Shown here: positions 3,417 to 23,549 of the stretch, piece by piece | Position numbering within the stretch: position 1 is the stretch's first letter | How the letters are laid out: each line of letters opens with the position of its first letter | DNA from: Ahrensia sp. | Lineage (GTDB): Bacteria; Pseudomonadota; Alphaproteobacteria; Rhizobiales; Rhizobiaceae | Reading direction: 5' to 3' | NCBI GenBank assembly: GCA_002698425.1 | Contig: NZXU01000009.1 | Span: 10,434-74,433 of the forward strand | DNA: 64,000 bases | Notes under the pieces: generated by a model | Told to the model about the DNA's origin: nothing | The model's database searches: none | The model's input: only the letters and a program-made list of their open reading frames with translations | Translations under genes and position numbers: made by a program

Positions 3417-3463
3417 GAATGCCTCCTCCATGCGGCCGGACCATAGCTGAACGTCACAAAAAA

Positions 3464-3497
3464 AGAAATCAGTTTCTAAAGTTGAAATCATTTCCAA
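3464..3497. promoter_or_regulatory. Candidate IclR operators between divergent operons
   Basis: Two A+T-rich near-palindromes lie in the 138-bp gap between divergent genes: AGAAATCAGTTTCT (3464-3477) and TTGAAATCATTTCCAA (3482-3497). Both are built from GAAA/TTTC arms and their centres are about 19 bp apart. The nearest regulator gene is the IclR at 1543-2367. Assignment to IclR is inference from position and symmetry. Confidence 0.45.
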
Positions 3498-3554
3498 TTT
3501 CTGTAATTGTCGCTCCACCGGTTCCCAGCGGGCCGATGAGGGAGGAATTTGCCG

Positions 3555-6192: not shown

Positions 6193-6222
6193 TGTCCAAG
6201 CATTCGTCCCTTTAATCCATTT
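6193..6222 (-). promoter_or_regulatory. Candidate AraC operator, copy 1 (half-sites 21 bp apart)
   Basis: TGTCCAA (6193-6199) and ATCCATTT (6215-6222) have the half-site order, orientation and 21-bp spacing of the elements at 16016-16044 and, inverted, 15014-15042. The second half-site has one mismatch (A for G). It lies about 105 bp before the AroE-like start, farther than in the other two copies, so it is the weakest of the three. Confidence 0.5.
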
Positions 6223-6325
6223 CAAAAATGGGCGCTCTTGCCCATTAATCTGCAAGGAAACAGGGGTGTGCGCTGCATTGCAGAACATTTTCGCATCAAC
6301 AGAGCCGTGCAGGGAGGCAGTTGAT

Positions 6326-7159
6326 ATGTCCAACTCGCCAACCGGCGATTCCGTTCGCGCCATGCCTTCGCTCAACGGCGAAACGAAGGTCTTCATCATC
6401 ATCGGCGATCCGATCGCCCAGGTGAAGTCGCCGGCATTGCTCACCGCCAACATGCATGAACGCGGAGTCAATGCCGTGGTCGTCCCCGGTCATGTGTTTC
6501 CCGCCGATGTCGCAGCGTTCATGGCCGGCTGCGACGCCCTGCGAAATGTCGACGGCGTCATCGCAACCATCCCGCACAAGCAGGCTATGCTCGGCTATTG
6601 CGCCGAGATTACCGAGCGCGCCCGTTATGCCAATTCGGTAAATGTGATGCGGCGCTCGGACGCCGGCTGGTCGGGCGACAATACCGACGGCATGGGCTAC
6701 GTGTCCGGGATCAAGGCGGCCGGTGGAGCGATCGAGGGCAAGCGGGTCCTTTTGATCGGGGCGGGCGGAGCCGGGTCGGCCATCGCCTATGAATTCCTCG
6801 CCCAGGGCGCAGCGCATCTGGATATCCACGATGTCGACGCCGCGCGCCGCGATGCGCTGATCGCGCGGCTGGAGGAGAAGTTCGCGGGAAAGGTCGCGGC
6901 CGGGAGCAACGATCCGCGCGGCTACGACATCGTCGGAAACGCGACGCCGCTCGGCATGAAGGAGGGCGATCCGCTGCCGGTTCTCTGCGAGCATCTCGAT
7001 GCGGGCCAATTCGTCGCCGACGTCATCACCAAGCCCGAGATCTCGCCGCTGATCGCGGCCGCGAGATCGCGGGGTTGCAAGACGATGCCGGGCCTCGGCA
7101 TGTTCAAGGCTCAGGAGGGTTTGCTGGTCGACGCCCTTCTCGGAAATCCATACGACTGA
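6326..7159 (+). CDS. Shikimate/quinate dehydrogenase family protein (AroE-like, divergent)
   Basis: A 277-residue AroE-fold oxidoreductase. The catalytic lysine is in ATIPHKQAM, the partner Asp in DNTDGMGY, and the nucleotide site is GAGGAGSA. The usual N-terminal SxS substrate-carboxylate motif (S-x-SP) is replaced by VKSP, so one of the two serines is missing; this is known from AroE-like paralogues with changed substrates. Start at ATG 6326 is supported by AGGGAGG at 6311-6317; the frame is open to 6266 but lacks a good site. First gene of an operon with the liv-type transporter, suggesting that the transported compound or an early product is its substrate. Confidence 0.85.
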   Translation: MSNSPTGDSVRAMPSLNGETKVFIIIGDPIAQVKSPALLTANMHERGVNAVVVPGHVFPADVAAFMAGCDALRNVDGVIATIPHKQAMLGYCAEITERARYANSVNVMRRSDAGWSGDNTDGMGYVSGIKAAGGAIEGKRVLLIGAGGAGSAIAYEFLAQGAAHLDIHDVDAARRDALIARLEEKFAGKVAAGSNDPRGYDIVGNATPLGMKEGDPLPVLCEHLDAGQFVADVITKPEISPLIAAARSRGCKTMPGLGMFKAQEGLLVDALLGNPYD

Positions 7160-7183
7160 CCAACTGATCTGGGAGGAAACCAA

Positions 7184-8311
7184 ATGATCAAGACACTCAC
7201 TGCATCCACGGCTATCGCGCTGGCCCTGATGGCCGGCGCCGCCAATGCCGACGTCACCATCGCCGACGTGGCCGAACTGTCCGGCGCGGGCGCCGCTGCC
7301 GGCGCTGTCTGGCACGACGGCGTCACCATGGGCTTCGACGAGGTCAACGCCGCCGGCGGCATTCTCGGCGAGCAAGTCAATCTCGTGTCCTATGACAGCC
7401 AGACGGATCCGCAGAACAGCCGCGCGATGGTGCAGAAGGCCATTGACGAGGGCACCTTCGTGCTGATGGGCACGGTCTATTCGTCGTCGACGGTGGTCAA
7501 CATGCTGGTCGCACAGCAAAACGGCATGCCGCAGTTCACGGGCTCGGAGTCGCCGACGATCACCGCGAAGGGCAACCCCTACATCTTCCGCACGTCTTTC
7601 GGCGCGCAGAAGTCCATGCCGAAAGTGGCCACCTATTACGCCGACGGTCTCGGCGCGAAGAAGGTCGCCGTCGTCTGGGCCAACACGGAGTTCGGCAAGG
7701 GCGGTCGTGACGCCTTCCTCGCAAACGCGGAAGAGAAGGGCATCGAGATCATCGCCGACATTCCGACAGAACAGGCGCAGGTCGACTTTGCCGCCGACGT
7801 GGCAAAGATCAAGGCGGCGGGGGCCGATGCCATCTTCGCCTACATGACGGAAGAGGAAAGCGCCCGCTTCCTGATTGAGGCCGACAAGCAGGATGTCGGC
7901 GTGCCGATCGGCGGCGAGACGGTTCTGGTTTCGCAGAAGGTCATCGACCTGGCCGGCGACGCCGCCAATGGCGCGTTCGGTCATGTCGGCCTCAGCGCCG
8001 ATGCGCCGGTGCCCGCCATCCAGGAAATGTCCAAGAAGTTCGAGGAGCGCTTCGGCTACAAGGCCGACCACAACGCGATCAAGGGCTATATCGGCGCCTG
8101 GACGGTCAAATACGTCACCGAGCAGATCGGCGAATTCGACCGCGAGAAATTCGCCGACACGATGCACGGTCTGTGCCTCGATGCGGCGTCGCATCCGAAT
8201 ATCCTGATGGATGTCTGCTGGGACGACACCGGCGAGGTGTCGCGCGAGAGCTTCCTCGTCGAAGTCATCGACGGCAAGCAGCAGATCACCAAGACGCTTC
8301 CGGCGAACTGA
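7184..8311 (+). CDS. livK: ABC transporter substrate-binding protein, LivK/Peripla_BP_6 type
   Basis: A 375-residue periplasmic binding protein with a signal peptide (positive MIKT, hydrophobic core, cleavage after AANA near residue 22). The mature part has the two-lobe type I fold of branched-chain amino acid and aromatic acid binding proteins (GFDEVNAAGGILG, GSESPTITAKG, DYATEFG-like KKVAVVWANTEFGKGG). GGGAGG precedes the ATG by 8 bases. The cargo is unknown; in a ring-degrading cluster without amino-acid genes a carboxylated cyclic compound is more likely than leucine. Confidence 0.9.
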   Translation: MIKTLTASTAIALALMAGAANADVTIADVAELSGAGAAAGAVWHDGVTMGFDEVNAAGGILGEQVNLVSYDSQTDPQNSRAMVQKAIDEGTFVLMGTVYSSSTVVNMLVAQQNGMPQFTGSESPTITAKGNPYIFRTSFGAQKSMPKVATYYADGLGAKKVAVVWANTEFGKGGRDAFLANAEEKGIEIIADIPTEQAQVDFAADVAKIKAAGADAIFAYMTEEESARFLIEADKQDVGVPIGGETVLVSQKVIDLAGDAANGAFGHVGLSADAPVPAIQEMSKKFEERFGYKADHNAIKGYIGAWTVKYVTEQIGEFDREKFADTMHGLCLDAASHPNILMDVCWDDTGEVSRESFLVEVIDGKQQITKTLPAN

Positions 8312-8381
8312 TTGCCTCTGCCGCGGGCGGCCCGGTCACGGCGCCGCCCGCGTTTCCGCTCCCGAAATCAGGTGAGGGCGC

Positions 8382-9260
8382 ATGTCCGAATTCATCCAAA
8401 TACTGGTCTCCGGGCTATCGGCCGGCGCGATCTACGCCCTGGCGGCGGTCGGCTTCACGCTGTTGTGGCAAGCCTCGCAGACGATCAATTTCGCCCAAGG
8501 CGAGTTCGTCATGATACCGGCCTTCTTCGTGCTGGCCTTCATGAACTGGGCCGGCATGCCCTTCGGGCTCTCCATCCTGTTCGCGATCATCGTTTCGGTG
8601 ATCGTGCTCGGCGCAGTGTTCAAGAAGCTGGTCGTCGATCCGATGATGCGGCACGGGACATTGCCGCTGGTCATCGCCACCATCGCGCTCGGATTGCTGA
8701 TGAAGGAGAGCGTGAAGGAACTTTATTCGCCGCTCGGCCAACCGTTCCCGAGCCTGTTTCCGGCTGACGTGCTGACCTTTCTGGGCGCGTCCATATCCGT
8801 GTCCGACATCGCCAATTTCTTTATCGCAATGGGGACGATCATTGCGCTGCAGTTGTTCCTGCAAAAGACGCGGACGGGGCGCTGCATGCAGGCGACCGCG
8901 CAGAACCCGGACGTCGCGCAGATCCTCGGCGTCGATATCAAGCGGATGGTGCTCTACACCTTCCTGATCAACGGGGCGCTGGCGGCGATCGCGTCCGTCC
9001 TGATCACGCCGGTCTACCTGGCGAAATTCTCCAATGGCGAGGTACTCGGACTCGTCGCCTTCATCGCGGCGATCGTCGGCGGTTTCAACCAGATCCGCGG
9101 CGCGCTCGTCGGCGGCTTGCTGATCGGCGTGATCGACAATCTGTCGGCGAGTTACGTGTCGTCCGAATACCGCCAGGCGATGCCCCTCATCCTGCTGATC
9201 GTCATCATTCTCGTGCGGCCGCAGGGCATTATGGGCACTTCGGAAGGGCGCGCGGTATGA
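8382..9260 (+). CDS. livH: ABC transporter permease, LivH type
   Basis: A 292-residue inner-membrane protein with about eight hydrophobic helices. The N-terminal SGLSAGAIYALAAVGFTLLW and the later INFAQGEFVM are typical of LivH permeases. It follows the binding-protein gene by 70 bases and overlaps the next permease gene by ATGA. It forms the membrane channel with the LivM-type partner. Confidence 0.92.
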   Translation: MSEFIQILVSGLSAGAIYALAAVGFTLLWQASQTINFAQGEFVMIPAFFVLAFMNWAGMPFGLSILFAIIVSVIVLGAVFKKLVVDPMMRHGTLPLVIATIALGLLMKESVKELYSPLGQPFPSLFPADVLTFLGASISVSDIANFFIAMGTIIALQLFLQKTRTGRCMQATAQNPDVAQILGVDIKRMVLYTFLINGALAAIASVLITPVYLAKFSNGEVLGLVAFIAAIVGGFNQIRGALVGGLLIGVIDNLSASYVSSEYRQAMPLILLIVIILVRPQGIMGTSEGRAV

Positions 9261-10231
9261 ACCGGAAAACACTCATCATCGCGGTCGTCGGGATCGTGCT
9301 CCTCGTGCTGGCTCCGATGGGGCAGAAGAACTACATCATCTATGTCCTGTGTTCCTGGCTGATGTTCTCCATCGGCGCGATGGGGCTGAACCTGACGCTC
9401 GGCTATGCCGGCCAGGTCTCGCTGGCGCAGGCCTCCTTCATGGGCATCGGCGCCTATGTCACCGCTCTGTTGACGCTGAATGGCTGGCACTGGATGGCGG
9501 CGATGCCGCTCGCCGTGCTGACGACCTTCGTGATCGGTCTGTTGCTCGGCTACCCGGCATTGCGGGTACAGCACCATTTCCTCGCCTTCGTGACGCTTGC
9601 GTTCAACACGCTCGTCTTCCTCGTCCTTCGCAACGAGGAATGGCTGACCGGCGGCTCGTTCGGTCTCGTCGGCATGCCGCGGCCCGACTTCGGTTTCTAC
9701 GACACCGGCAAGCAGATCGATTTCTACTATTTCACGCTGGTTCTGTTCGTCCTGTCGGCGGCAGTGCTGGCCTGGATCGTCAATTCGCCATGGGGCAGGG
9801 CCTTCAAGGCTCTGCGCGAGAACCCGATCCGGGCCAACAGCCTCGGCGTCGACATTCGCCGCATGACGCTGCTCGCATTCGCGATCGGCTCCGCTTTCGG
9901 CGGCCTCGCCGGGGCGATCATGACGCCGCTCGTCCAGTTCATCGAGCCCGGCTCCTTCGGCCTCATCCATTCGCTGAAGATGCTGCTGATGGTTGTCGTG
10001 GGCGGCGCGGGCTTCTTCTTCGGGCCGATCCTCGGCGCGGCGGTGGTCATCATTCTTCCCGAACTGCTGCGCTTCACCGAGGGCTATTACCTGATGATCT
10101 ACGCCTTCCTCGTCATCGTGCTGATGGTCTACTCGCCCGACGGCCTGATCGGGCTCGGAAAGAAGCTGGTGGTTCGTGTCCGCGGCAAGCAGGAAGTGCG
10201 CAAGGACATGACGCAAGGAGCGCAGCTATGA
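9257..10231 (+). CDS. livM: ABC transporter permease, LivM type
   Basis: A 324-residue inner-membrane protein with LivM hallmarks: MGLNLTLGYAGQVSLAQASFMG early on, ALRENPIRANSLGVD in the cytoplasmic loop that docks the ATPase, and FAIGSAFGGLAGA. Its start overlaps the LivH stop and its stop overlaps the LivG start (both ATGA). The C-terminal tail is basic and cytoplasmic. Confidence 0.92.
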   Translation: MNRKTLIIAVVGIVLLVLAPMGQKNYIIYVLCSWLMFSIGAMGLNLTLGYAGQVSLAQASFMGIGAYVTALLTLNGWHWMAAMPLAVLTTFVIGLLLGYPALRVQHHFLAFVTLAFNTLVFLVLRNEEWLTGGSFGLVGMPRPDFGFYDTGKQIDFYYFTLVLFVLSAAVLAWIVNSPWGRAFKALRENPIRANSLGVDIRRMTLLAFAIGSAFGGLAGAIMTPLVQFIEPGSFGLIHSLKMLLMVVVGGAGFFFGPILGAAVVIILPELLRFTEGYYLMIYAFLVIVLMVYSPDGLIGLGKKLVVRVRGKQEVRKDMTQGAQL

Positions 10232-10971
10232 GCGTGGTCCTGAACGTCCAGGGAATTTCAAAGTCGTTCGGCGGCATTCACGCCGTGCGCGATGTCAGCT
10301 TCGAGGTTCGCAAGGGCGAGATGCTCGGCCTGATCGGCCCGAACGGTTCCGGCAAGTCTACGCTGTTCAATTGCGTGCTCGGGCAATTGAAGCTGAGTGC
10401 AGGCCGGGTCGAGGTGAACGGACGCGATGTCAACGGCATGCGCGCGTGCGATCTCAACAAGCTCGGCGTCGGCCGCACCTTCCAGCAATTGTCGGTGTTC
10501 CCGCAGATGTCGGTGATCGACAACATCATCCTGGCCGGGCAGGAGCATCACGGCTCGATGCTGAGCCGGCTCTTCGGTCCGTCGGACGCCGGATTGACCG
10601 CCGAAGCCGAGCAGATGATCGAATTCTTCCGCCTCGGCCATTTGCGCGACGAGCTGGCAGGATCGCTTTCCTACGGACAGCAGAAGCTTGTCGATGCGGC
10701 GATGGCCTTCATGGCCGGGCCGTCGCTGGTGCTGCTGGACGAACCGGCCGGCGGGGTGAACCTGACCATGCTTGGCAATCTGAAGGAACGGCTGAAGGCC
10801 TATAACGAGACCCACGACACGACATTCGTGGTGATCGAGCACAACATGGAATTCGTGATGTCGCTGTGCAACCGCATCATCGTTCTCGCCGAGGGCGCGA
10901 TCATCGCCGAAGGGACGCCGGACGAAATCCGCGCGAACCAGCAGGTCATCGACGCGTATCTGGGAGGCTGA
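10228..10971 (+). CDS. livG: ABC transporter ATP-binding protein, LivG type
   Basis: A 247-residue ATPase with Walker A GPNGSGKST (about residues 36-44), Q-loop near GRTFQQLSVFPQM, signature LSYGQQK, Walker B LVLLDEPAGGVN and switch His in VIEHNMEFVM. The C-terminal extension with EGTPDEIRANQQVIDAYLG is typical of LivG. The signature LSYG rather than LSGG is common in this subfamily. It couples ATP hydrolysis to import through the LivHM channel. Confidence 0.93.
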   Translation: MSVVLNVQGISKSFGGIHAVRDVSFEVRKGEMLGLIGPNGSGKSTLFNCVLGQLKLSAGRVEVNGRDVNGMRACDLNKLGVGRTFQQLSVFPQMSVIDNIILAGQEHHGSMLSRLFGPSDAGLTAEAEQMIEFFRLGHLRDELAGSLSYGQQKLVDAAMAFMAGPSLVLLDEPAGGVNLTMLGNLKERLKAYNETHDTTFVVIEHNMEFVMSLCNRIIVLAEGAIIAEGTPDEIRANQQVIDAYLGG

Positions 10972-10973
10972 CC

Positions 10974-11702
10974 ATGTTGGAAATCAAGGACCTCTATGGC
11001 GGCTACGGCAAGATCACCATTCTCAATGGCGTCTCGTTCACGATCCCGCCGGCCTCGATCACGACCGTTATCGGCCCCAACGGGGCCGGCAAGTCCACGG
11101 TCTTCAAGGCTGTCTTCGGGCTGCTGAATATCCATTCCGGGCAGATCCTGCTCGACGGCAAGGACGTGACGCGCCAGACGCCGAAGCAGATGATTGACCA
11201 CGGCGTGACCTATGTGCCGCAAGGGCGCAACGTGGTGCCGCAGCTGTCGGTCTATCACAATCTCGAACTCGGCGGCATCACCGCCAAGGACCAGGGGCTG
11301 GTGCGCGAGCGCATCGACAAGGTGATGGACCAGTTCCCGATGCTGCGCGAGTTCCGCAACCGCAAGGCGATCGAACTGTCGGGCGGTCAGCAGAAGCAGT
11401 TGGAAGTGGCGCGCTCGCTGTTGCTCGATCCGAAGCTCATCCTGATCGACGAGCCGTCGATCGGCTTGTCGCCTAATCTCGTTCAGGAAGTCTTCCGGAC
11501 GTTGCAGATGCTGCGCGATCAGGGCGTGACCATTTTGATGGTGGAGCAGAACGCGAAGTCGGCGCTGGCGATGTCCGATTACGGCCTCGTGCTCGAACTC
11601 GGCCAGACGCGCATGCACGACAAGGCGCAGAAGCTTCTCGACGATCCGCGTGTCGGCCATCTCTTTCTCGGCGGCCATATCGAGGAGGAAGAGGAGGCGT
11701 GA
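10974..11702 (+). CDS. livF: ABC transporter ATP-binding protein, LivF type
   Basis: A 242-residue ATPase starting two bases after the LivG stop, with Walker A GPNGAGKST, signature LSGGQQKQ, Walker B LILIDEPSIGLSP and VEQNAKSALAMSD, which is typical of LivF. The C-terminus ends in a run of glutamates. Last gene of the 6326-11702 operon; it converges on the SDR gene, whose stop is only 12 bases away, with no hairpin visible between them. Confidence 0.93.
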   Translation: MLEIKDLYGGYGKITILNGVSFTIPPASITTVIGPNGAGKSTVFKAVFGLLNIHSGQILLDGKDVTRQTPKQMIDHGVTYVPQGRNVVPQLSVYHNLELGGITAKDQGLVRERIDKVMDQFPMLREFRNRKAIELSGGQQKQLEVARSLLLDPKLILIDEPSIGLSPNLVQEVFRTLQMLRDQGVTILMVEQNAKSALAMSDYGLVLELGQTRMHDKAQKLLDDPRVGHLFLGGHIEEEEEA

Positions 11703-11714
11703 CGGGGGCGGGCG

Positions 11715-12476
11715 TCAGCTAGCGCTGGCGTCACCGGCTGCACCGAAGGCGGCCCAGCCGCAATCGACGCTCAGAATGGCACCCGTGATGGCGCTGGCTG
11801 CCGGGGAGGCGAGAAACCAGGCAGCCTCGGTCAGCTCCGACGATTCCACCAGGCGGCCCATCGGGCTGCGCCTCTTGATCAGATCAAGATCGAGCGCGCC
11901 CTCGGCGGCCAGTTTCTCGACCAGCGCGGTGCGGGTGTATCCGGGCGCGATCGCGTTGACGCGGACGCCATGCGACGCCCATTCGCAGGCGAGCGACTTC
12001 GTCATCATAGCGATGCCCGCCTTGGCGGCGCCGTAAGCGTTGCGTCCGGGGATGCCGTCGAGACCGGCAATCGACGAGATGTTGACGATGGAGCCAGACC
12101 CCTGCGCGATCATCAGGCGGCCGATTTCGCGCGAACACAGGAAAGCGCCCGCCAGATGCACGTCGAGGACGGCGCGAAAATGGCCTATATCCTGTTCCAG
12201 CGTCGGCTTGGCGCTGTCGCCGATCCCGGCATTGTTGATCAAAACATCACAGCGCGACAGCGATGAGGCGAGGCGTTTCACGTCCTCCTCGCGGGTCACG
12301 TCGCAGGCGACCCCTGAACAGTCTCCGCCAAGCTCCGCCGCGCGGGCCTCGGCCTTGTCCCGGTCCAGGTCGGCGACGATGACGCTGTGGCCACGTTCGG
12401 CAAACAGGCGCGCCATGGCCCAGCCGATGCCGTCCGCGCCGCCCGTTATCACGGTCGTCTTGGGGTCAGTCGTCAT
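11715..12476 (-). CDS. Short-chain dehydrogenase/reductase (SDR)
   Basis: A 253-residue classical SDR with the cofactor motif TGGADGIG (about residues 11-18), NNAG, catalytic Ser in NISSIAG and the Tyr-x3-Lys of NAYGAAKAG, plus the PGYTRT segment. Likely an NAD(P)-dependent alcohol/ketone oxidoreductase. Its start overlaps the end of the next SDR gene by 11 bases. It is the third and last gene of the leftward flavoprotein-SDR-SDR operon, so it probably oxidises or reduces a hydroxyl or keto group on the same ring compound. Confidence 0.9.
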   Translation of the reverse strand: MTTDPKTTVITGGADGIGWAMARLFAERGHSVIVADLDRDKAEARAAELGGDCSGVACDVTREEDVKRLASSLSRCDVLINNAGIGDSAKPTLEQDIGHFRAVLDVHLAGAFLCSREIGRLMIAQGSGSIVNISSIAGLDGIPGRNAYGAAKAGIAMMTKSLACEWASHGVRVNAIAPGYTRTALVEKLAAEGALDLDLIKRRSPMGRLVESSELTEAAWFLASPAASAITGAILSVDCGWAAFGAAGDASAS

Positions 12477-13257
12477 TGTAGCCGGGACGCGGAACGTGGC
12501 TCATCAGCGTCTGTGCGTAGCCGCCGTCGACGATGATTTCCTGCCCGGACACATAGGACGCCCGCTTGGACGCGAAATAGAGGACCGCATCGGCGATGTC
12601 TTCCACCCGGCCGATACGGCGCAGCGGAACCACCTTTTCGCGCGCGGCCTTGGTCTTTTCGTCGGCATAGAACGCTTCCGACAAGGCGGTCCGCACGAGG
12701 CCGGGGCTGACGACGTTGGAGCGCACGCCGCGCGGGCCCCATTCATAGGCCAGTTGCCGGGAGAGCATGGAGACGCCGGCTTTCGAGGCCGAATAGGCGT
12801 TGGAGAACGCTTGCTGGTGATTGCCCGAAATCGAGCCGACATGGACCAGCGCTCCGGAACCGCGCGCCAGCATCGGCGCGCCGAACGCCTGCGCGCAGCG
12901 CAGATAGCCGGTCAGGTTGACGTCGAGCATCCTCTGCCAGGCCGCCACGTCCACCTCGTCCAAATTGCCCGGCGAGAGATAGGCCGCGTTGTTGACGAGG
13001 ATGTCCGCGTCGCCGAAGGCCTCCGCGACGGCAGCCGTCGCCGCCGACACGCTGGTTGCATCGGTGACGTCGCAGCCGACGGCGAGCGTGTCCTTGCCGA
13101 ATTCGGCGGCGACCGCCTGGGCCGCATCCCGGTTAATGTCGAGGACCGCGATCTTGCAGCCGGCTTCGCGAAACGCCGACGCGATGGCCTTGCCGATGCC
13201 GCCGGCGGCGCCCGTGACGACGGCGGTCTTGCCGCCGATCCCAAGCCAGTCCGCCAT
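12466..13257 (-). CDS. Short-chain dehydrogenase/reductase (SDR)
   Basis: A 263-residue classical SDR with TGAAGGIG, NNAA, catalytic residues in the HVGSISG and AYSASKAG segments, and SPGLVRT. It differs enough from the neighbouring SDR to suggest a different substrate or stereochemistry rather than a recent duplication. The start codon overlaps the stop of the flavoprotein gene (ATGA). Confidence 0.9.
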   Translation of the reverse strand: MADWLGIGGKTAVVTGAAGGIGKAIASAFREAGCKIAVLDINRDAAQAVAAEFGKDTLAVGCDVTDATSVSAATAAVAEAFGDADILVNNAAYLSPGNLDEVDVAAWQRMLDVNLTGYLRCAQAFGAPMLARGSGALVHVGSISGNHQQAFSNAYSASKAGVSMLSRQLAYEWGPRGVRSNVVSPGLVRTALSEAFYADEKTKAAREKVVPLRRIGRVEDIADAVLYFASKRASYVSGQEIIVDGGYAQTLMSHVPRPGYNDD

Positions 13258-14951
13258 CAGTCCAGCCCCGCGATATGGCGGCCGGTGATATAGCCGAAGG
13301 TCATGGCCGGGCCGAGCGTGATGCCGGCGCCGGGATAGTTGCCGCCCATGATCGAGGCACGGTCGTTGCCGACGGCGTACAAGCCGTCGATCGCGGCGCC
13401 GTCCTTCGTCAGTACCTGCCCGTTTACCGTCGTCTTCAGGCCGTCGAAGGTGCCGAGATCGCCCATGATGATCTTCAACGCGTAGTAGGGACCTTTCTCG
13501 ATGGGGCCGACGCAGGGGTTTGGCTTGTGCTCGGGATCGGCAAGGTAGCGGTTGAACGCGGTGCGCCCGCGGCCGAATTCGGGATCCTCGCCACGGACCG
13601 CGTGTTCGTTATAGGCGGCCACGGTGGCTTCCAGGCCGGCCGGGTCTATGCCTGTGCGTGCGGCGAGGTCGGCCAGTGTCGCGCCCTTATGGATATAGCC
13701 GTTGGCGATGTATTTCGACAGCGGCACGGGCGCCGGCTTGGCGAAACCGAGGCCGTATTTGCGGATCGTCGGATGGTCGCAGATGAGCCAGGCCGCGGTT
13801 TCGGACTGCCCCTCGCAGGCCCCCGTCAGTGCCGCGCCGACATCGTGATAGCTCTCGCTCTCATTGGTGAAGCGTTTACCGTTCTTCAGGACGGCGATGA
13901 TGCCGGGCTTGTAGCGGTCGAGGAGATGCGGGAAGGCGCCGAACTTGCCGTTGCCCATCGGCACCTTCGATACGGGCATCCAGGCGGATGTGTCCTTGAA
14001 CTCGATCGGCGCATCGCCGCCCACGGCCTCGGCAAGGCGGATGCCGTCGCCGGTGTTGCCCTCCGGAACGGGGCTGAAATGTTCGCCGCCACGCCTGAGA
14101 TGCGGATAGGCTTTCTGCAGCTTTTCCACATCGTGCGCGAAACCGCCCGATGCCAGCACGACGGCCTTGCGCGCGGTGAGCGTCGCGCCGGGAACCCGGA
14201 CGCCGGTCACCCGACCGTCTTCGACGAGCAGTTCCTCGGCCGGCGTATCGGTATAGACCGGGATGCCGAGATCGAAGGCGCTCTTGGCCAGCCGTGCGGC
14301 CAGCGCGTTGCCGGATGTCACCTGGACGCCGCGTCCGTAGCGGGCGACCTCTGCGAAATGGGCGAGCAGGCGCTTGGCGACATAGACGAAGGATGTCGGG
14401 GACTTCGTTGCGTTGAAGAAATGCTTGATGTCGGCATTGGACGAATTGAACATCATTCCCATGAAGGTGATCGTCGCCAGCGGCGGCCGCAATCGCTTCA
14501 GGTTGTCGCCGAGCGACGACGTGTCGAACGGCGCGGCCAGCACGGCGCGACCGACATCGACGCCGCCGGGCTGGTCGGGATGGTAGTCCGGATAGAGGGT
14601 CGGCACGAATTTGACCGACGTCTCGCGCTCGAAAAATTCAAGCATTTCCGGACCGGTGTCGATGTAGGTTTCGACAGCGGCGGCATCGTAGAAATTGCCG
14701 GTCTCCGCCTTCATGTAAGTGATGGCTGCTTCGCGGTCGTCGTTGACGCCGGCGGCTTTCGCGTGGTGGTTCAGCGGTATCCACAGCACCCCGCCGGAAA
14801 AAGCGGTGGTGCCGCCGAAGACCGGTTCCTTCTCGATGATCGCGACGCTGGCGCCGAGTTTCTTCGCGGTGATGGCGGTCGACATTCCGGCCGCGCCCGA
14901 TCCGACGACGACGATGTCATAGGTTTCCGATTTCGTCGGTCGCGTGCTCAT
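13257..14951 (-). CDS. FAD-dependent dehydrogenase, KstD-like
   Basis: A 564-residue flavoprotein, the third KstD-type paralogue. N-terminal FAD site DIVVVGSGAAGMSTA, EKEPVFGGTTAFSGG, central RFTNESESYHDV with the conserved Tyr, and C-terminal GNDRASIMGGNYPGAGITLGP. The ATG at 14951 has GGGGAGG just upstream; a longer open frame continues to 16043 but that part is antisense to the AraC gene and is rejected. First gene of the leftward operon with two SDRs, divergent from the AraC regulator, with a candidate AraC operator 62 bp upstream. Predicted to desaturate a cyclic keto compound; substrate unproven. Confidence 0.88.
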   Translation of the reverse strand: MSTRPTKSETYDIVVVGSGAAGMSTAITAKKLGASVAIIEKEPVFGGTTAFSGGVLWIPLNHHAKAAGVNDDREAAITYMKAETGNFYDAAAVETYIDTGPEMLEFFERETSVKFVPTLYPDYHPDQPGGVDVGRAVLAAPFDTSSLGDNLKRLRPPLATITFMGMMFNSSNADIKHFFNATKSPTSFVYVAKRLLAHFAEVARYGRGVQVTSGNALAARLAKSAFDLGIPVYTDTPAEELLVEDGRVTGVRVPGATLTARKAVVLASGGFAHDVEKLQKAYPHLRRGGEHFSPVPEGNTGDGIRLAEAVGGDAPIEFKDTSAWMPVSKVPMGNGKFGAFPHLLDRYKPGIIAVLKNGKRFTNESESYHDVGAALTGACEGQSETAAWLICDHPTIRKYGLGFAKPAPVPLSKYIANGYIHKGATLADLAARTGIDPAGLEATVAAYNEHAVRGEDPEFGRGRTAFNRYLADPEHKPNPCVGPIEKGPYYALKIIMGDLGTFDGLKTTVNGQVLTKDGAAIDGLYAVGNDRASIMGGNYPGAGITLGPAMTFGYITGRHIAGLD

Positions 14952-15013
14952 GGTCCTCCCCGATGCAGCCTGGACAGCGTCGCTGATTAAGGTCGCCGAA
15001 CGGTCTTCGCGCC

Positions 15014-15042
15014 AATGGACACGGACGGGAATTTGTTGGACA
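15014..15042 (+). promoter_or_regulatory. Candidate AraC operator, copy 2 (half-sites 21 bp apart)
   Basis: AATGGAC, 13 bases, then TGTTGGACA. The TGGAC cores are 21 bp apart, two helical turns, the usual geometry of AraC-family direct repeats. The same half-sites with the same 13-base spacer occur inverted at 16016-16044. It lies 62 bp upstream of the flavoprotein start at 14951 and just before the AraC gene. Confidence 0.65.
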
Positions 15043-15101
15043 ATTCGTTGCAGGTGATCCCGCCGGGCGGAGATTGCCGACGGGAGGAGGAGCCCGTGAG
15101 C

Positions 15102-16004
15102 ATGAACAAGATGACGCCGGTCCCGCACTTCTATCTCTACGGTGACGAGGAAAAGGACGTCGAGATCGACACGGTTCATATCGAGCCGATCCGCGAACGG
15201 TCCCTGCGGCATGATTGGATAATTCATCCGCATGTCCATCCAGATCATTTCCAGGTTCTGTTCTTCACCGGCGGCGGAGCGACGATCGATATCGAGGGCG
15301 AAACCATTGTCGCCGAACCCAGATGCCTGATGGTTCAGCCGGCCGGCATGGTGCATGGAATCCACTTCCTGCCGGGCACCGAGGGCAAGGTTGCGACGAT
15401 TGCCACGTCCTATCTCACCAGCATCGCCCGGGACGATCCGCGGCTGATCGAGACGGTCGGTCACGCGGCCGCCTATCCGTTGCAGGAAGGGGGACAGGAC
15501 GACATCAATGCCGAGTTTGCGTTCGAGCAGATCATGCGGGAAGCGAACTGGACGGAGCCGGGCCGCCGCACGGCCATTCGCGCGCATCTCCTCTCGCTGC
15601 TGGTGGTGCTGCTTCGCCGACGCGCCGCCAGCGGCATCGACGGACCGCGCTACCGCGACCGCAACTACGATCTCGTCAGCCGGTACAAGGCGCTGCTCGA
15701 AACGAGCTTCCGCGAACACAAGATGCTCTCCTACTACGCGCGGGAACTCGGCGTGTCGCCACAACGGCTCAATGCGGCCTGCCGGGTACGTGCGGGAAAG
15801 ACCGCGTCGGAGGCCCTGCATGACCGCATCGTCGCCGAGGCGAAGCGCAACCTGATCTACACCGAGATGACCATCGCTGAGATCGGCCATTCGCTCGGCT
15901 ATGACGATCCGGCCTATTTCAACCGCTTCTTTTCGCAGCGTGTCGGCGTGCCGCCCGGCACCTACCGCGCCAATGCCGCGACGACCCAGCGTGTCAGCCG
16001 CTGA
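15102..16004 (+). CDS. AraC family transcriptional regulator, PobR/HpaA-like
   Basis: A 300-residue regulator. The N-terminal cupin half (about residues 5-150) begins PHFYLYGDE and has HPHVHPDHFQVLFF and MVQPAGMVHGIHF, the pattern of AraC-type activators of 4-hydroxybenzoate and hydroxyphenylacetate genes. The C-terminal part (about 205-295) is the double helix-turn-helix (YYARELGVSPQRLNAAC, then IAEIGHSLGYDDPAYFNRFF). ATG 15102 sits 9 bases after GGAGGAGGAG; an upstream in-frame ATG at 15015 lies inside the candidate operator and is less likely. Divergent from the flavoprotein operon and 99 bases before the NIPSNAP operon, both of which carry the candidate operator. The ligand is probably a carboxylated ring compound. 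Confidence 0.88.
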   Translation: MNKMTPVPHFYLYGDEEKDVEIDTVHIEPIRERSLRHDWIIHPHVHPDHFQVLFFTGGGATIDIEGETIVAEPRCLMVQPAGMVHGIHFLPGTEGKVATIATSYLTSIARDDPRLIETVGHAAAYPLQEGGQDDINAEFAFEQIMREANWTEPGRRTAIRAHLLSLLVVLLRRRAASGIDGPRYRDRNYDLVSRYKALLETSFREHKMLSYYARELGVSPQRLNAACRVRAGKTASEALHDRIVAEAKRNLIYTEMTIAEIGHSLGYDDPAYFNRFFSQRVGVPPGTYRANAATTQRVSR

Positions 16005-16015
16005 GACACGCGGAA

Positions 16016-16044
16016 TGTCCAACACAATGCGCCGATCGTCCATT
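16016..16044 (-). promoter_or_regulatory. Candidate AraC operator, copy 3 (half-sites 21 bp apart)
   Basis: TGTCCAACA (16016-16024), 13 bases, GTCCATT (16038-16044): the exact reverse complement of the half-sites at 15014-15042. It ends 59 bp before the NIPSNAP start codon, nearly the same distance as copy 2 has to its own target, and with the same orientation relative to transcription. Confidence 0.65.
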
Positions 16045-16103: not shown

Positions 16104-16685
16104 ATGCTATTCGAGCTGCGAACCTATGACCTGAAGCCGGCCAAGGCGCCTGTTTATCTGGACAATTTCCGCAGGAACGGCGTCGGCCTGGTGACCGTGA
16201 GCCTGCCGCTTGGCGGTTACTGGATGACCGAGAGCGGACGCCTCAACCGGATCCAGCATCTCTGGATCTACGACGATTTTGCCGATCGCGAGCGCTGCCG
16301 CGCCAACCTTTCCCGCGACGAGGCATGGATGACCGGGTTCATTCCGGGCGCCTTCGTCGACGTGGTCGGCCAGCAGAACCGGTTTCTGAATCTGGTCGAA
16401 GGCAGCGGGGCGCTGGAGCGCGTCGTGGCCGGGAGGCGGACCGTTCACCCAAACCAGCCGGCGGACGTTCCGATGTTCGCCGATACGCTGCACGCGCTGG
16501 CGATCCATCGTGACAAGCCGGCCGTCAGCGAGCGGATAATCGCCCTTTTCGAGGTTCTGAGCGGTACCGACGCCGGCCAATTCATCACCCTGTCCGCGGG
16601 GCCTGCCGACACACTCCTCGCCGGCGCGAACGGGGCAGGGGACCACGAGATTCTCAGACCGCTCAGCCTTTCGCCGCTGCGCTGA
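16104..16685 (+). CDS. NIPSNAP family protein
   Basis: A 193-residue protein of the NIPSNAP/dimeric α/β-barrel group. It starts with the family's hallmark FELRTYDLKP, followed by GGYWMTESGRLNRIQHLWIYDDFADRERCRANL. Function of bacterial members is not established; they are often found in aromatic and terpene degradation operons. GGGAGGGCGGCGGGCAG precedes the ATG. First gene of an operon with an acyl-CoA dehydrogenase and a CoA-transferase, under the third candidate AraC operator. Confidence 0.82.
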   Translation: MLFELRTYDLKPAKAPVYLDNFRRNGVGLVTVSLPLGGYWMTESGRLNRIQHLWIYDDFADRERCRANLSRDEAWMTGFIPGAFVDVVGQQNRFLNLVEGSGALERVVAGRRTVHPNQPADVPMFADTLHALAIHRDKPAVSERIIALFEVLSGTDAGQFITLSAGPADTLLAGANGAGDHEILRPLSLSPLR

Positions 16686-16710
16686 TACCCATCAAGAGAA
16701 AGATGCCGCC

Positions 16711-17886
16711 ATGGATTTTTCGCTGACCCACGAACAACGCATGCTGGTCGACACCGTGCGTGAGTTCATCCGCAACGAACTCGCCCCGCTGGAAGACACG
16801 ATCGAGGAAACCGGCGTCCTGCCGCCCGAAACCGCGCGCGACATCTTCGAGAAATCGCGCGCGCTCGGCCTGTACGGCATGAACATCCCGGAAGAACATG
16901 GCGGCGGCGGGTTGTCGGTGCTGGAATCGATGTTGGTGGAGGAACAGTTCGGCCATACGACCGACATCCTGATCCGGCGCGCCTTCGGCAATGTCTACGA
17001 GGTGCTGCTGTCGTGCACGGGCGCCCAGGTGGATCGCTGGCTGGCGCCGGCGGTCAGCGGCGACCGCGTCTGTTCCATCGCCTTTACCGAACCTGGAGCC
17101 GGGTCGGACGCCGCCGGCATCAAGACGCGCGCCCGGCGCGACGGCGACAAGTGGATCCTCAACGGGATGAAGCACTTCATCTCCGACGGGGCTTTCTCGG
17201 ACTTCTTCGTCGTCACCGCCGTGACCGATCCGGACAAGGGCCATCGCGGCATCTCCATGTTCCTTGTCGACAAGGGCACGCCGGGCTTCACGGTCGGGCG
17301 CGACCAGCCGATGATGGGCATCCGCGGCACGTCGCATCTGGAGCTGCATTTCGACGACGTGGAACTGACCAACGAGAACCTGCTCGGCGAGGAGGGCGGC
17401 GGGCTGAAGCTGGCGCTTTCCGTTTTGGGGCGCGTGCGGCTGGCGCAGGTAGCAGCACGGTCGATCGGCAAGGCCACCAAGGTGCTCTCCATGACACTCG
17501 ACTATGCCCGCGACCGACGCCAGTTCGGCCAGGCGATCGGCGAGTTCCAGATGGTGCAGCAAATGCTGGCCGACAGCGCCATCGAGATCAACGCCGCGCG
17601 CACCGCGCTGTGGGAATGCGCATGGCAGATGGACAAGGGCATGGACCCGCGCGCCAAGATCTCGATGCTCAAGGTCCAGGCATCCGAAACGCTCGGCCGC
17701 GTCGTCGACCGCGCCATGCAGATCTACGGCGGCATGGGCTTTTCAAAGGACCTGCCGATCGAGCGCTATTACCGCGATGCGCGTATCTACCGCATCTTCG
17801 ACGGCGCCAGCGAGATCCATCGCAGCGTGGTGGCGAATTCGATGCTGAAGGGCGGCGCGTCCGCCTTCGACCCGTTCGGAGACTGA
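16711..17886 (+). CDS. Acyl-CoA dehydrogenase
   Basis: A 391-residue flavoenzyme of normal family length. N-terminal helical domain, then the CSIAFTEPGAGSDAAG signature in the middle β-domain (about residues 120-135), then the C-terminal helices with QIYGGMGFSKDLPIERYYRDAR and the catalytic Glu in DGASEIHR. It desaturates an acyl-CoA at Cα-Cβ, passing electrons to ETF. It is followed after two bases by a CoA-transferase gene, suggesting a ring or side-chain acid is first activated by CoA transfer and then desaturated. Confidence 0.92.
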   Translation: MDFSLTHEQRMLVDTVREFIRNELAPLEDTIEETGVLPPETARDIFEKSRALGLYGMNIPEEHGGGGLSVLESMLVEEQFGHTTDILIRRAFGNVYEVLLSCTGAQVDRWLAPAVSGDRVCSIAFTEPGAGSDAAGIKTRARRDGDKWILNGMKHFISDGAFSDFFVVTAVTDPDKGHRGISMFLVDKGTPGFTVGRDQPMMGIRGTSHLELHFDDVELTNENLLGEEGGGLKLALSVLGRVRLAQVAARSIGKATKVLSMTLDYARDRRQFGQAIGEFQMVQQMLADSAIEINAARTALWECAWQMDKGMDPRAKISMLKVQASETLGRVVDRAMQIYGGMGFSKDLPIERYYRDARIYRIFDGASEIHRSVVANSMLKGGASAFDPFGD

Positions 17887-17888
17887 CC

Positions 17889-19406
17889 ATGGCGCGTTTC
17901 ATGACTGCAGCCGAGGCCGTTTCGCTCGTCCCTGACAACGCGACGCTCGGCCTTGTCGGCGGCGGCGGCGGCCTGTGCGAGGCGATGCTGCTGCACGAGG
18001 AGACCGAAAAGCGGTTCCTCGAGACCGGCCATCCGCGCAACCTGACCGTCGTGCATGCGCTCGGAATCGGCGACCGCCAGAAGACCGGCATGAACCGTTT
18101 CGCCCACAAGGGCATGGTCGCGGCGGTGATCGGCGGCCACTGGGTCTGGTCGCCGGAGATGCAGCGCATGGCGGCCGAAAACGAGATCGAGGCCTATGTG
18201 CTGCCCGGCGGCGTCGCCATGCAGCTGATGCGCGAAATCGCGGCGGGTCGACCCGGCCTCATCACCCATGTCGGGCTCGGCACGTTTGTCGATCCGCGCG
18301 TGGAAGGCGGCCGGATGAACGACGTGTCCGCGCGCGATCTCAGCGAGGTGCTGGAACTGGATGGACGGGAGTATCTCCGCTACCGGACGTTCCCGGTCAA
18401 CGCCTGTCTGCTGAAGGGGTCGATCGCCGACGAGGAGGGCAATATCAGCCTCGACGAAGAGCCTGCCAATGTCGACACCTATGCGATGGCCGCGGCGGTT
18501 CATAACAGCGGCGGCACGGTGATTTTCCAGGTCCGAGAGAAGGTGCCCGCCGGCGCGCTCGGTGCGCGCCAGGTGCGCATCCCGTCGGCCATCGTCGATG
18601 CGATCGTTGTCGATCCCGGCCAGCGCCAGGGCTATGACATTGTCTACGACCCGGCGATTTCCGGTCAGGAGCGCAGCGTGGAAGCGCGTCCGCAGCCGCC
18701 GGCGCCCTCCGTGCGCCAGATCATCGCGCGGCGCGCCCGCCACGAATTGCGCGATGGCATGGTCGTCAATTACGGGTTCGGCATTCCGGACGAAATCGCC
18801 TCGCTCGTCGCCGCCGACGGCGAGCAGCACCGCTACTACCAGACGATCGAGCACGGCACCTATGGCGGGACGCTGCTGACAGGCAATCTGTTCGGCTATG
18901 CGCGCAATCCGTCCTGCATGATCGACGGGCCGTCGCAATTCGATTTCTATTCCGGCGGCGGGCTGGACATCGCCTTTCTCGGTTTCGGGGAATTCGACGG
19001 CGAAGGCAATGTGAATGCCTCGAAGCTCGGCGGGTTACCGGTCGGGCCGGGCGGTTTCATCGATATCGCCCAGAACGCGCGCAAGGTGGTGTTCTGCGGC
19101 ACGTTCGACGCCAAGGGCGCCGATATCGCGGCGAGCGGCGGCAAGCTTGCGATCGCCACACATGGCTCGATCAGGAAGCTGGTCGCGCGCGTTCGCCAGA
19201 TCACTTTCTCGGGCGCCCAGGCGATAAGGCAGGGGCAGGAGATCCTCTATGTCACCGAACGCGCGGTCTTCGCGCTGCGCCAGGACGGATTGTGGCTGAC
19301 CGAAGTCGCTCCGGGCATCGACCTGCGCGCCGACGTTCTGGAGCGGATAGATTTCGAGGTGAAGCTGGACAATCCGAAAGTGATGCCCGCTTCATGCTTC
19401 GCGTGA
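17889..19406 (+). CDS. CoA-transferase, fused A and B subunits (family I)
   Basis: A 505-residue protein with the α subunit-like half at about residues 1-250 (GLVGGGGGLCEAML, HVGLGTFVDPRVEGG) and the β-like half after about residue 270. The catalytic Glu is in TIEHGTYGG (E321). The fused layout matches acetate/propionate CoA-transferases such as E. coli YdiF. The acceptor acid is unknown; its place behind an acyl-CoA dehydrogenase suggests activation of an acid made by the ring-oxidising enzymes nearby. Last gene of its operon, converging on a terminator. Confidence 0.9.
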   Translation: MARFMTAAEAVSLVPDNATLGLVGGGGGLCEAMLLHEETEKRFLETGHPRNLTVVHALGIGDRQKTGMNRFAHKGMVAAVIGGHWVWSPEMQRMAAENEIEAYVLPGGVAMQLMREIAAGRPGLITHVGLGTFVDPRVEGGRMNDVSARDLSEVLELDGREYLRYRTFPVNACLLKGSIADEEGNISLDEEPANVDTYAMAAAVHNSGGTVIFQVREKVPAGALGARQVRIPSAIVDAIVVDPGQRQGYDIVYDPAISGQERSVEARPQPPAPSVRQIIARRARHELRDGMVVNYGFGIPDEIASLVAADGEQHRYYQTIEHGTYGGTLLTGNLFGYARNPSCMIDGPSQFDFYSGGGLDIAFLGFGEFDGEGNVNASKLGGLPVGPGGFIDIAQNARKVVFCGTFDAKGADIAASGGKLAIATHGSIRKLVARVRQITFSGAQAIRQGQEILYVTERAVFALRQDGLWLTEVAPGIDLRADVLERIDFEVKLDNPKVMPASCFA

Positions 19407-21656: not shown

Positions 21657-23549
21657 ATGAAGACCGCCATCGCAACCGTTTCGATCTCCGGAGACCTTGC
21701 CGAGAAACTGGCCGCGATCGCCGCCGCCGGATTTGACGGCGTGGAGATCTTCGAGAACGACTTTCTCGCCTTCGACGGCGGTCCGGGGGAGGTCGGCCGC
21801 ATGGTGCGCGATCACGGCCTGGAGATTTCGCTCTTCCAGCCCTTCCGCGATTTCGAGGGCATGCCGGAGCCGCAGCGCGCCCGCGCGTTCGACAGGGCGG
21901 AACGCAAATTCGATGTCATGCAGGAACTTGGAACCGATCTGGTGCTGATCTGCTCCAACGTGTCGCCGATCTCGCTTGGCGGTATCGACCGTGCAGCCGA
22001 CGATTTCCGCGAACTGGGCGAGCGGGCGGCGAAACGCGGCATTCGCATCGGTTACGAGGCGCTGGCCTGGGGCAGGCACGTCAATGACCATCGCGACGCC
22101 TGGGAGATCGTGCGGCGCGCCGACCATCCCAATGTCGGTCTGATCCTGGACAGCTTCCACACGCTGGCGAGAAAGATCGACCCGGACACGATCCGCTCCA
22201 TCCCCGGCGACCGCATCTTCTTCATCCAGCTGGCAGATGCGCCGAAGATCGACATGGACCTCCTCTACTGGAGCCGGCATTTCCGCAACATGCCGGGCGA
22301 GGGCGACCTCGACGTCACCGGTTTCATGCGGGCCGTCGCCGCCACAGGCTATGACGGCATGCTGTCTCTCGAGATTTTCAACGACCAGTTCCGCGGCGGT
22401 TCGCCTAAAGCGATCTCGGTCGATGGGCACCGTTCGCTCGTCTACCTGATGGACCAGGTTCGCCGATCGGAGCCGGATATAAGCATCCGGGTTCCCGACA
22501 TGCCGGACCGCATACCGGTGCACGGCGTCGAGTTCGCGGAATTCGCAGCCAACGAGGAGGAGGCGGCGCAACTCGGTGCGATGCTTCATACGCTCGGCTT
22601 CCGGCGCGCCGGCAAGCATGTCTCCAAGGATGTCGGGCTGTGGCGGCAGGGCGATATCAATATCGTCATCAACACCGAACGCGAGGGCTTCGCCCATTCC
22701 TCCTATGTCGTCCACGGCGCCAATGTCTGCGACATCGGTTTGAAGGTGGAGGACGCCGGCGCGACGGTGGAGCGCGCGCGGGCGCTCGGCGCGGATCTTT
22801 TCGAGCAGCCGGTCGGTCCGGGCGAACTGAAGATCCCGGCGATCCGCGGCGTCGGCGGCGGGATCGTGCATTTCATCGATGCGAAAAGCGATCTCGCCCG
22901 TGTCTGGGAGATTGAATTCGAACCGGTTGCCGACGCCGAAACGCCAGTCGACGCCGGCCTCACGCGTGTCGATCATATCGCCCAGACGATGAATTACGAG
23001 GAGATGCTGACCTGGCTGCTCTTCTACACCTCGATCTTCGAGACCGGTAAGTCGCCAATGGTGGATGTGGTCGACCCGGCCGGGCTCGTGCGCAGCCAGG
23101 TGATCGAAAACGAGACCGGCCTGCTGCGCATCACGCTGAACGGCGCAGAGAACAGGCGGACGCTGGCCGGACACTTTCTGGCCGAGAGCTTCGGCTCATC
23201 TGTCCAGCATCTTGCCTTCGCGACCGAGGACATTTTCGCGACTGCCGCTGCGCTGGCGGCGAACGGCTTTTCGTCGCTGGTCATCTCGCCCAATTACTAT
23301 GACGATCTGGACGCCCGCTTCGGCCTGGAGGAGGAGTTCCTGAACCGCCTGCGCGACAACAACATCCTCTATGATCGCGACGACAACGGCGAATACTTCC
23401 AGCTCTACAGCCCGAATTACGGCGAGGGTTTCTTCTTCGAGATCGTCGAACGCCGAAACGGCTATCGCGGCTACGGCGCGTCCAATGCGCAATTCCGCAT
23501 CGCCGCGCAGAAGCGTCACATGCGGCCGAAGGGAATGCCGAAGACTTAA
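21657..23549 (+). CDS. quiC: 3-Dehydroshikimate dehydratase, QuiC type (TIM barrel + VOC/HPPD-like domain)
   Basis: A 630-residue two-domain protein. Residues about 1-270 are a xylose-isomerase-like TIM barrel whose four metal ligands fall at Glu134 (GYEALAW), Asp165 (LILDSFH), Gln191 (FIQLADAP) and Glu239 (SLEIFND), the same numbers as in Pseudomonas QuiC1. Residues about 290-615 form a 4-hydroxyphenylpyruvate-dioxygenase-like VOC module (HIAQTMNYEEM, QHLAFATEDIF, YFQLYSPNYGEGFFFEIVER). The barrel converts 3-dehydroshikimate to protocatechuate; the role of the VOC half is less clear. It sits divergent from lactonase-dctP and convergent with a TetR gene, and supports quinate/shikimate catabolism in this module. 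Confidence 0.93.
   Translation: MKTAIATVSISGDLAEKLAAIAAAGFDGVEIFENDFLAFDGGPGEVGRMVRDHGLEISLFQPFRDFEGMPEPQRARAFDRAERKFDVMQELGTDLVLICSNVSPISLGGIDRAADDFRELGERAAKRGIRIGYEALAWGRHVNDHRDAWEIVRRADHPNVGLILDSFHTLARKIDPDTIRSIPGDRIFFIQLADAPKIDMDLLYWSRHFRNMPGEGDLDVTGFMRAVAATGYDGMLSLEIFNDQFRGGSPKAISVDGHRSLVYLMDQVRRSEPDISIRVPDMPDRIPVHGVEFAEFAANEEEAAQLGAMLHTLGFRRAGKHVSKDVGLWRQGDINIVINTEREGFAHSSYVVHGANVCDIGLKVEDAGATVERARALGADLFEQPVGPGELKIPAIRGVGGGIVHFIDAKSDLARVWEIEFEPVADAETPVDAGLTRVDHIAQTMNYEEMLTWLLFYTSIFETGKSPMVDVVDPAGLVRSQVIENETGLLRITLNGAENRRTLAGHFLAESFGSSVQHLAFATEDIFATAAALAANGFSSLVISPNYYDDLDARFGLEEEFLNRLRDNNILYDRDDNGEYFQLYSPNYGEGFFFEIVERRNGYRGYGASNAQFRIAAQKRHMRPKGMPKT

Follow-up and report, generated by a model that had tools for sequence, protein, structure and literature searches.

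The 64,000-nt stretch of Ahrensia sp. contig NZXU01000009.1 (positions 10,434 to 74,433), called the window below, carries the gene for an AraC-family regulator with an operon on either side: on the left, flavoprotein/SDR/SDR genes read leftward (from 14951 to 11715; SDR, short-chain dehydrogenase/reductase), and on the right, NIPSNAP/acyl-CoA dehydrogenase/CoA-transferase genes read rightward (16104-19406). Left of the araC gene there is also a third operon, with an AroE-like gene followed by a liv-type importer (6326-11702, forward strand). The flavoprotein of the first operon, FAD2, was similar to 4-oxocyclohexenecarboxylate/ketosteroid dehydrogenases in Pfam and NCBIfam profiles, and the operons probably serve the breakdown of ring-shaped acids. 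An initial annotation had proposed that a paired element in front of the three operons forms an AraC regulon and ties them into one pathway. The regulon was supported by the analysis described here, since the spaced element is conserved and, in genomes that hold the regulator, nearly confined to the promoters of this cluster and to pobA. The assignment of the three operons to one pathway is based on conserved gene content.

As first described, AATGGAC-N13-TGTTGGACA occurred exactly at 15014-15042 on the forward strand and at 16016-16044 on the reverse strand, with the TGGAC cores 21 bp apart and the araC gene between the two copies. The distances calculated from the coordinates were 62 bp to the flavoprotein start (14951, reverse strand) and 59 bp to the NIPSNAP start (16104, forward strand), and all three copies had the same orientation relative to their operon. 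The third copy was present at 6193-6221, but it differed at 3 of the 16 specified bases, and the single mismatch given for it was rejected. The AroE-like gene most likely starts at 6326, where GGAGG stands 8 bases before the start codon, and the third copy is therefore about 104 bp from that codon. From loci fetched by protein similarity, the conserved core in the orientation of transcription was GTNCAA-N15-RTCCATT, and the trinucleotide ACA adjoining the distal half of the earlier string (TGT on its strand) fell outside this core. The core had three perfect matches in the 64 kb, which were the three sites, and no match with one mismatch; with two mismatches it was unspecific at this size (4 seen, 4.98 expected). 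The earlier string with up to three mismatches gave 4 matches in the window compared to 0.30 expected, a number reached in 0 of 100 shuffles. The fourth of these, at 6327-6355, was rejected as a site because it falls on the AroE start codon; a 10/12 match at the same place in one close relative (L013) is as expected for coding DNA. Operator 1 likewise precedes the araC gene, at a distance of 60 bp. All coordinates are collected in Table 1.

Table 1. Predicted operators and genes in the window, with the basis for each name
Feature	Position	Strand	Basis or remark
Paired operator 1, predicted	15014..15041	-	GTCCAA 15036-15041, GTCCATT 15014-15020; faces flavoprotein/SDR operon
Paired operator 2, predicted	16017..16044	+	GTCCAA 16017-16022, GTCCATT 16038-16044; faces NIPSNAP/acyl-CoA dehydrogenase/CoA-transferase operon
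Paired operator 3, predicted	6194..6221	+	GTCCAA 6194-6199, ATCCATT 6215-6221; faces AroE-like/liv operon
AraC-family regulator, PobR/HpaA-like, N-terminal cupin and C-terminal HTH_18	15102..16004	+	Pfam, NCBIfam, homologues, tree
FAD2, FAD-dependent oxidoreductase (FAD_binding_2)	13257..14951	-	subfamily NF004789, 740.4 bits, just under cut-off 747
SDR1, SDR oxidoreductase	12466..13257	-	subfamily NF005559, 225.8 bits, cut-off 215
SDR2, SDR oxidoreductase	11715..12476	-	cis-4-hydroxycyclohexanecarboxylate dehydrogenase-like, 206.5 bits, below cut-off 350
AroE-like, shikimate/quinate dehydrogenase family	6326..7159	+	aroE model 141.3 bits, below cut-off 200.2
liv-type ABC importer	7184..11702	+	five genes
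liv substrate-binding protein (SBP)	7184-8311	+	Peripla_BP_6 (Pfam)
liv permeases	8382-9260 and 9257-10231	+	named from translations and relatives
liv ATPases	about 10228-10971 and 10974-11702	+	named from translations and relatives
NIPSNAP family protein	16104..16685	+	PF07978
Acyl-CoA dehydrogenase	16711..17886	+	Pfam and NCBIfam profiles
CoA-transferase	17883..19406	+	PF01144
QuiC-like protein, 3-dehydroshikimate dehydratase candidate	21657..23549	+	67% identity to Paracoccus sp. MA protein (L086)
Second flavoprotein/SDR pair	3549-6151		directly upstream of AroE operon
Third FAD-protein homologue	about 12-1526	-	
IclR regulator	1543-2367	-	
Gfo/Idh/MocA oxidoreductase	2364-3488	-	
TetR protein	23559-24236		

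The spacing between the two halves was fixed across related loci. In a set of 83 loci, 1.63 Mb in all and with the pobA loci among them, the starts of the half-sites were 21 nt apart 106 times and never at another spacing between 8 and 27 nt. With GTSCAA as the distal half, 43 loci (L001-L043) gave 74 pairs at 21 nt and none at other spacings from 8 to 32 nt. The orthologous promoters, which the initial annotation had named as the place to look for the spaced half-sites, carried them at the fixed distance: 42 loci, the window included, had the element on the side of the flavoprotein or of SDR1. The two-part switch is kept in many alphaproteobacteria.

Each placed gene was then scored by the best element, out of 13, in about 335 bp upstream; these counts take in paralogous genes and near-identical loci (L008/L009; window/L001/L013). 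Scores of at least 12/13 were found for 39 of 47 FAD2-type, 32 of 34 NIPSNAP and 17 of 27 AroE-type promoters. Six of 27 SBP promoters reached this level, all in loci without an AroE gene placed before the SBP gene, as did 3 of 40 SDR1 promoters (L017-L019, in which that place is not taken by FAD2). None of the 198 promoters of nine other families did so (FAD1 0/16, Gfo 0/16, acyl-CoA dehydrogenase 0/10, CoA-transferase 0/8, livH 0/29, livF 0/28, SDR2 0/38, QuiC 0/7 and pcaH 0/46), and the QuiC-like genes, with the window copy among the seven, had no element at 11/13 or more. The single SDR0 promoter out of 22 at this level was an artefact of the incomplete flank in L003, none of 86 upstream pieces of the araC gene in its own direction reached it, and 1 of 5220 shuffled 335-bp pieces reached 12/13. 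Identity was 41-62% for the eight FAD2 genes that scored lower, which were one gene of the window (46%) and those of L007, L008, L009, L017, L033, L086 (41%) and L093. Eight of the ten AroE genes below 12 were placed elsewhere in the locus (L007-L009, L031, L032, L035, L036 and the second copy in L086). The two NIPSNAP promoters below 12 were those of L034, which scored 11, and L033, which scored 8. An inverted NIPSNAP gene kept the element in L034 (11/13) and in L088 (13/13).

A -10-like score, which is a sequence score and not a mapped start site, reached its maximum 21 nt past the proximal half for the FAD2, NIPSNAP and pobA sites. For the AroE/SBP sites, among which this analysis counted the FAD2 site of L037, it was best at 28 nt and second at 21 nt, and at 21 nt it exceeded the 99% shuffle level in all four groups. 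By eye, TTAATC stands 23 nt downstream of operators 1 and 3 in the window, and TAAACC 20 nt downstream of operator 2. With a -10-like hexamer about 21 nt downstream and the usual 17-nt spacer, the predicted -35 therefore falls at or directly beside RTCCATT. A proximal half at -35 together with the same orientation at each target is the layout of a class II activator, as for AraC at araI1-I2, and the direct-repeat half-sites, about two turns apart and in the same orientation at each target, are of the AraC type.

On the genome scale, 24 of 78 fetched loci were followed up and gave 23 genomes with the regulator, in which the exact pattern GTSCAA-N15-RTCCATT was scanned, with the reversed pattern as a control. 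There were 54 exact matches compared to 5 for the reversed pattern. The cluster promoters accounted for 46 of the 54, and two were at a pobA gene directly behind the clade's own araC (G017, G018) and two at a pobA gene beside a PobR (G015, G020), giving 50 of 54 at cluster promoters or pobA; the remaining four were elsewhere (G005, G007, G013, G019). The AroE operon with its element was on a separate contig in the draft of G006 (L095) and just past the fetched flank on the same contig in G009 (L100). In a control family of 110 genomes, only the centre genome had a regulator orthologue at E<=1e-70, and it showed three matches within about 10 kb. The other 109 genomes, which have no regulator, had 41 scattered matches, with no two within 200 kb on a contig; the reversed pattern gave 29 matches in the same 110 genomes. 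A scan of a collection of viral contigs gave no relatives.

The regulator belongs to the AraC/XylS family, with a C-terminal helix-turn-helix (HTH) domain at residues 212-290 (HTH_18, PF12833, 72 bits, cut-off 33.6) and an N-terminal cupin (AraC_binding, PF02311, 24.1 bits, cut-off 21.1); a Cupin_2 match of 23.1 bits was under its cut-off of 27.2. The best NCBIfam match was HpaA (TIGR02297, residues 23-290), but membership was rejected because 136.6 bits is far from the cut-off of 274.65. The tree, built from 107 rows, placed all 41 labelled cluster regulators in one clade with support 98/94. The same clade took in eight unlabelled rows: five were loci of this set fetched a second time, one was L047, and two were L027 and L030, in which pobA is right behind the regulator; we take these eight rows to be the cause of the eight label changes reported on the tree. 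The sister group was the Azospirillaceae PobR together with Sphingobium L092, a long branch. A PobR of the AraC type would stand divergent from pobA and activate it; the window gene is divergent from the flavoprotein gene, and neither pobA nor pcaH was found within the 64 kb. In some members of the clade, pobA follows NIPSNAP or comes directly after araC. We filed the regulator in a clade paralogous to PobR, though it is predicted to work like PobR.

The link to pobA was also visible in the DNA. At least 12/13 was reached upstream of 32 of 53 pobA genes, among them those of L027 and L030 behind the clade's own araC; the pobA gene of L046 scored 11 and 20 scored lower. The 20 consisted of 12 in cluster loci behind other genes, six of the Azospirillaceae type, and those of Pseudomonas putida (L091) and Sphingobium (L092). 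In the Azospirillaceae-type loci L040, L041, L042, L044, L049 and L052, another shared stretch stood before pobA, TCCAATTTTTTGAT with GTGTCCTG nearby, varied in L044. In the five clusters checked, pobA directly followed NIPSNAP (Allorhizobium L007, Ectorhizobium L010, Neomegalonema L015, Shinella L023 and Gemmobacter L043), and the cluster regulator may serve as PobR there. The pobA gene of L007 is at 11565-12731, and genome G007 has a second pobA elsewhere.

For Agrobacterium tumefaciens, the consulted part of PMC12285266 reports that PobR binds CGTGCGATGGTCGGATT in electrophoretic mobility shift assays (EMSA) with motif replacement, more strongly with 4-hydroxybenzoate, and that it activates pobA and represses its own gene; the site is given there as 17 bp alone. 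We found that GGTCGGATT, the end of the published EMSA motif, runs directly into GTGCAA-N15-GTCCATT in A. cucumeris L089 and in the locus L102. The reported 17 bp therefore most likely lie beside a paired element in A. tumefaciens and share its conserved 5' flank (GGAT/GAAT), as judged from these relatives and not from the C58 sequence. The published motif, with one mismatch allowed, occurred at 7 places in 6 of 297 genomes, and none of the 7 loci had pobA or pobR. A 16-mer read off L089 matched two of 394 genomes, at L102, a pobA locus with the full element, and at L103, a pobA locus with GTGCAA and only CTGCATT (5/7) at the proximal place. No paired PobR operator was seen in the literature searched on the operator, the regulators and the pathway, a search that covered few subscription journals.

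These results suggest, with a probability of about 85%, that the 15102-16004 protein is a class II activator of the AraC type that controls the three operons of a hydroaromatic or alicyclic acid pathway. The element is most likely read by the adjacent regulator gene. A dimer of the PobR-like protein would bind the direct repeats GTNCAA and RTCCATT, which are 21 bp or two helical turns apart. With the proximal half at or beside -35, the protein, with an aromatic or hydroaromatic carboxylate as ligand, would activate transcription of the flavoprotein/SDR/SDR, the AroE-like/liv importer and the NIPSNAP/acyl-CoA dehydrogenase/CoA-transferase operons. Autorepression may in addition act through operator 1, which lies between araC and the flavoprotein gene. 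With the three operons together, the cell would import an acid of the hydroaromatic or alicyclic kind and oxidise it in the direction of 4-hydroxybenzoate/protocatechuate. Several observations weigh against this reading. The 83 loci also held 11 pairs of half-sites spaced by 28 nt and 7 spaced by 33 nt, for which it does not account. A clear element was missing in the PobR-like loci L040, L041, L042, L044, L049, L052, L091 and L092, L051 and L053 had at most the distal half by eye, and the linked pobA genes of G004 (L122) and G014 (L108) scored 9 and 10. AroE had no element in the clusters L016 and L043, and neither had the inverted NIPSNAP of L033 or the inverted liv operon of L015. The 41 matches in genomes without the regulator were counted in bulk. 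Finally, a PobR-type regulator with an almost identical element occurs in addition in twelve genomes, and the two could share their binding.

The last point leads to a joint regulon, in which the element would be common to the cluster AraC protein and a paralogous PobR encoded elsewhere. This was examined in the 12 genomes, which are related, that hold the cluster regulator and also a linked pobR-pobA pair with the element at 11/13 or more. Left out were L108 and L122 (below 11), the loci with pobA behind the clade's own regulator (L119, L121, L123-L126 and L129), and those in which no linked regulator was found (L106, L107, L111, L113, L117 and L130-L132, with L106 and L111 scoring 12). Both groups of regulators have nearly the same second HTH stretch, DPAYFNRF, which would fit a common element, though many PobR rows read DPAYFSR. 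Between the linked PobR proteins and the window protein, identity is about 27-37%. In G015 and G019, base 3 of the distal half was identical in both regulons, as a shared element would have it, but it differed between the flavoprotein- or SDR-side site and the pobA site in the other 10 of the 12 genomes, being C or G at the cluster and A at pobA in nine and A compared to G in G020. We therefore regard a joint regulon as unlikely, though to be taken seriously. The difference suggests a one-base insulation of the two regulators, a hypothesis for which there is no convincing protein residue. Among 80 distinct rows, the alignment column that best tracked base 3 was residue 195, with F in 17 of 17 A-type, 2 of 12 C-type and 2 of 51 G-type rows, and the A-type rows with F195 included cluster-type rows of Bradyrhizobium and L033. 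Residue 195 is not claimed as the determinant, since it is outside both HTH helices as placed and confounded by descent.

A regulator that represses and is released by its ligand would also explain sites near -35, from where repression is possible, and the autorepression reported for the A. tumefaciens PobR (PMC12285266) goes in the same direction. The class II activator layout, with one orientation at all three operons and a proximal half predicted at -35, makes repression rather improbable. The activation of pobA by PobR in PMC12285266 also argues against it.

It is very improbable that the element belongs to another local regulator, such as the IclR or TetR protein, with the adjacency of araC accidental. 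Both proteins are encoded within the window, 15 of the other loci fetched have IclR relatives, and the AroE operon of G006 (L095) has an IclR-like reading frame nearby. However, the element stands between PobR and pobA in most of the loci L055-L078, where no IclR relative shows, and clusters without an IclR match in the flanks (up to 10 kb) still carry it (L001-L005, L011 and L020-L022). For direct repeats, a distance of 21 bp is characteristic of AraC proteins and not of IclR or TetR proteins, which counts against this alternative. Chance, or a general promoter motif tied to no specific regulator, can practically be dismissed: the core with two mismatches is unspecific in one 64-kb window, but the fixed spacing, the restriction to promoters and the regulator-free control all oppose it.

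The activator regulon is of a known kind, as AraC-type regulons have been described before, and it is a new example. A motif found by eye in one window thus becomes a testable three-operon regulon with defined half-sites, spacing and promoter geometry, and a hydroaromatic/alicyclic acid pathway, so far uncharacterised, is tied to the regulation of 4-hydroxybenzoate use. More tentatively, GTNCAA-N15-RTCCATT could be a family-wide PobR-type operator, kept through a drift to about 30% identity and a change of pathway, with base 3, mostly C or G in the hydroaromatic cluster and A at pobA, acting mainly to insulate co-resident paralogues; we consider this possible, with the odds somewhat against it. 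If true, it would shift the functional core of the published A. tumefaciens site to the adjoining element. The paralogue pairs are a natural series for studying how related regulators with near-identical operators stay separate.

The closest known system is PobR-pobA of A. tumefaciens and other rhizobia, where an AraC-type activator controls 4-hydroxybenzoate 3-monooxygenase. The tree places it in the same cupin/AraC family, and the same element stands before pobA in Nitratireductor, Mesorhizobium, Aliihoeflea, Sinorhizobium fredii NGR234 and A. cucumeris. The window protein differs in that its identity to PobR is about 30% and its predicted targets are not pobA alone but three operons that belong to another pathway. 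Nine 4-hydroxybenzoate-binding residues are listed for the PobR of Xanthomonas campestris pv. campestris in PMC12285266. Eight of these were placed by eye from the spacing of motifs, and six are kept in the window protein: H26, R33, H37, W39, Q51 and H85 correspond to H8, R15, H19, W21, Q33 and H67. R27 and Y36 are replaced by V45 and F54, and the ligand may therefore differ from that of PobR; the ninth residue, R134, was not placed. Escherichia coli AraC at araI1-I2 is alike in its direct-repeat half-sites 21 bp apart, the proximal one of which lies at -35, where that of the element is predicted, and the DNA-binding domain matched the AraC structure 2k9s (E 1.9e-9). It differs in half-site sequence and sensor ligand, and no looping site is shown for the window. 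HpaA, the activator of 4-hydroxyphenylacetate catabolism, was the best NCBIfam match at half its cut-off score. The locus also recalls the quinate/shikimate (QuiC/QsuB-type) and cyclohexanecarboxylate (ChcB/ChcC) pathways, with QuiC-like and AroE-like proteins, ChcC2-like flavoproteins and ChcB2-like SDRs. The ChcB2, ChcC2 and aroE models were all below their cut-offs, and among the scanned proteins FAD1 (NF009477) and SDR1 (NF005559) alone passed.

Several further genes surround the three operons. Beside the cluster are genes for DctP and DctM, proteins of a TRAP transporter, and one that is SMP-30/gluconolactonase-like (19474-20457, 20497-21543 and 26820-28184). The QuiC-like protein, encoded farther downstream in the locus, is a candidate 3-dehydroshikimate dehydratase, a name that we take from its domain make-up and not from a curated match; its Paracoccus sp. 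MA relative has AP_endonuc_2 and HPPD-type domains, and in that strain the cluster is near pcaGHC and the QuiC-like gene. The second flavoprotein/SDR pair has no element of its own and is outside the regulon, and the name given by the NF009477 match of its FAD1 is unspecific. Within this locus, the genes at 12-3488 may make up a second regulatory unit.

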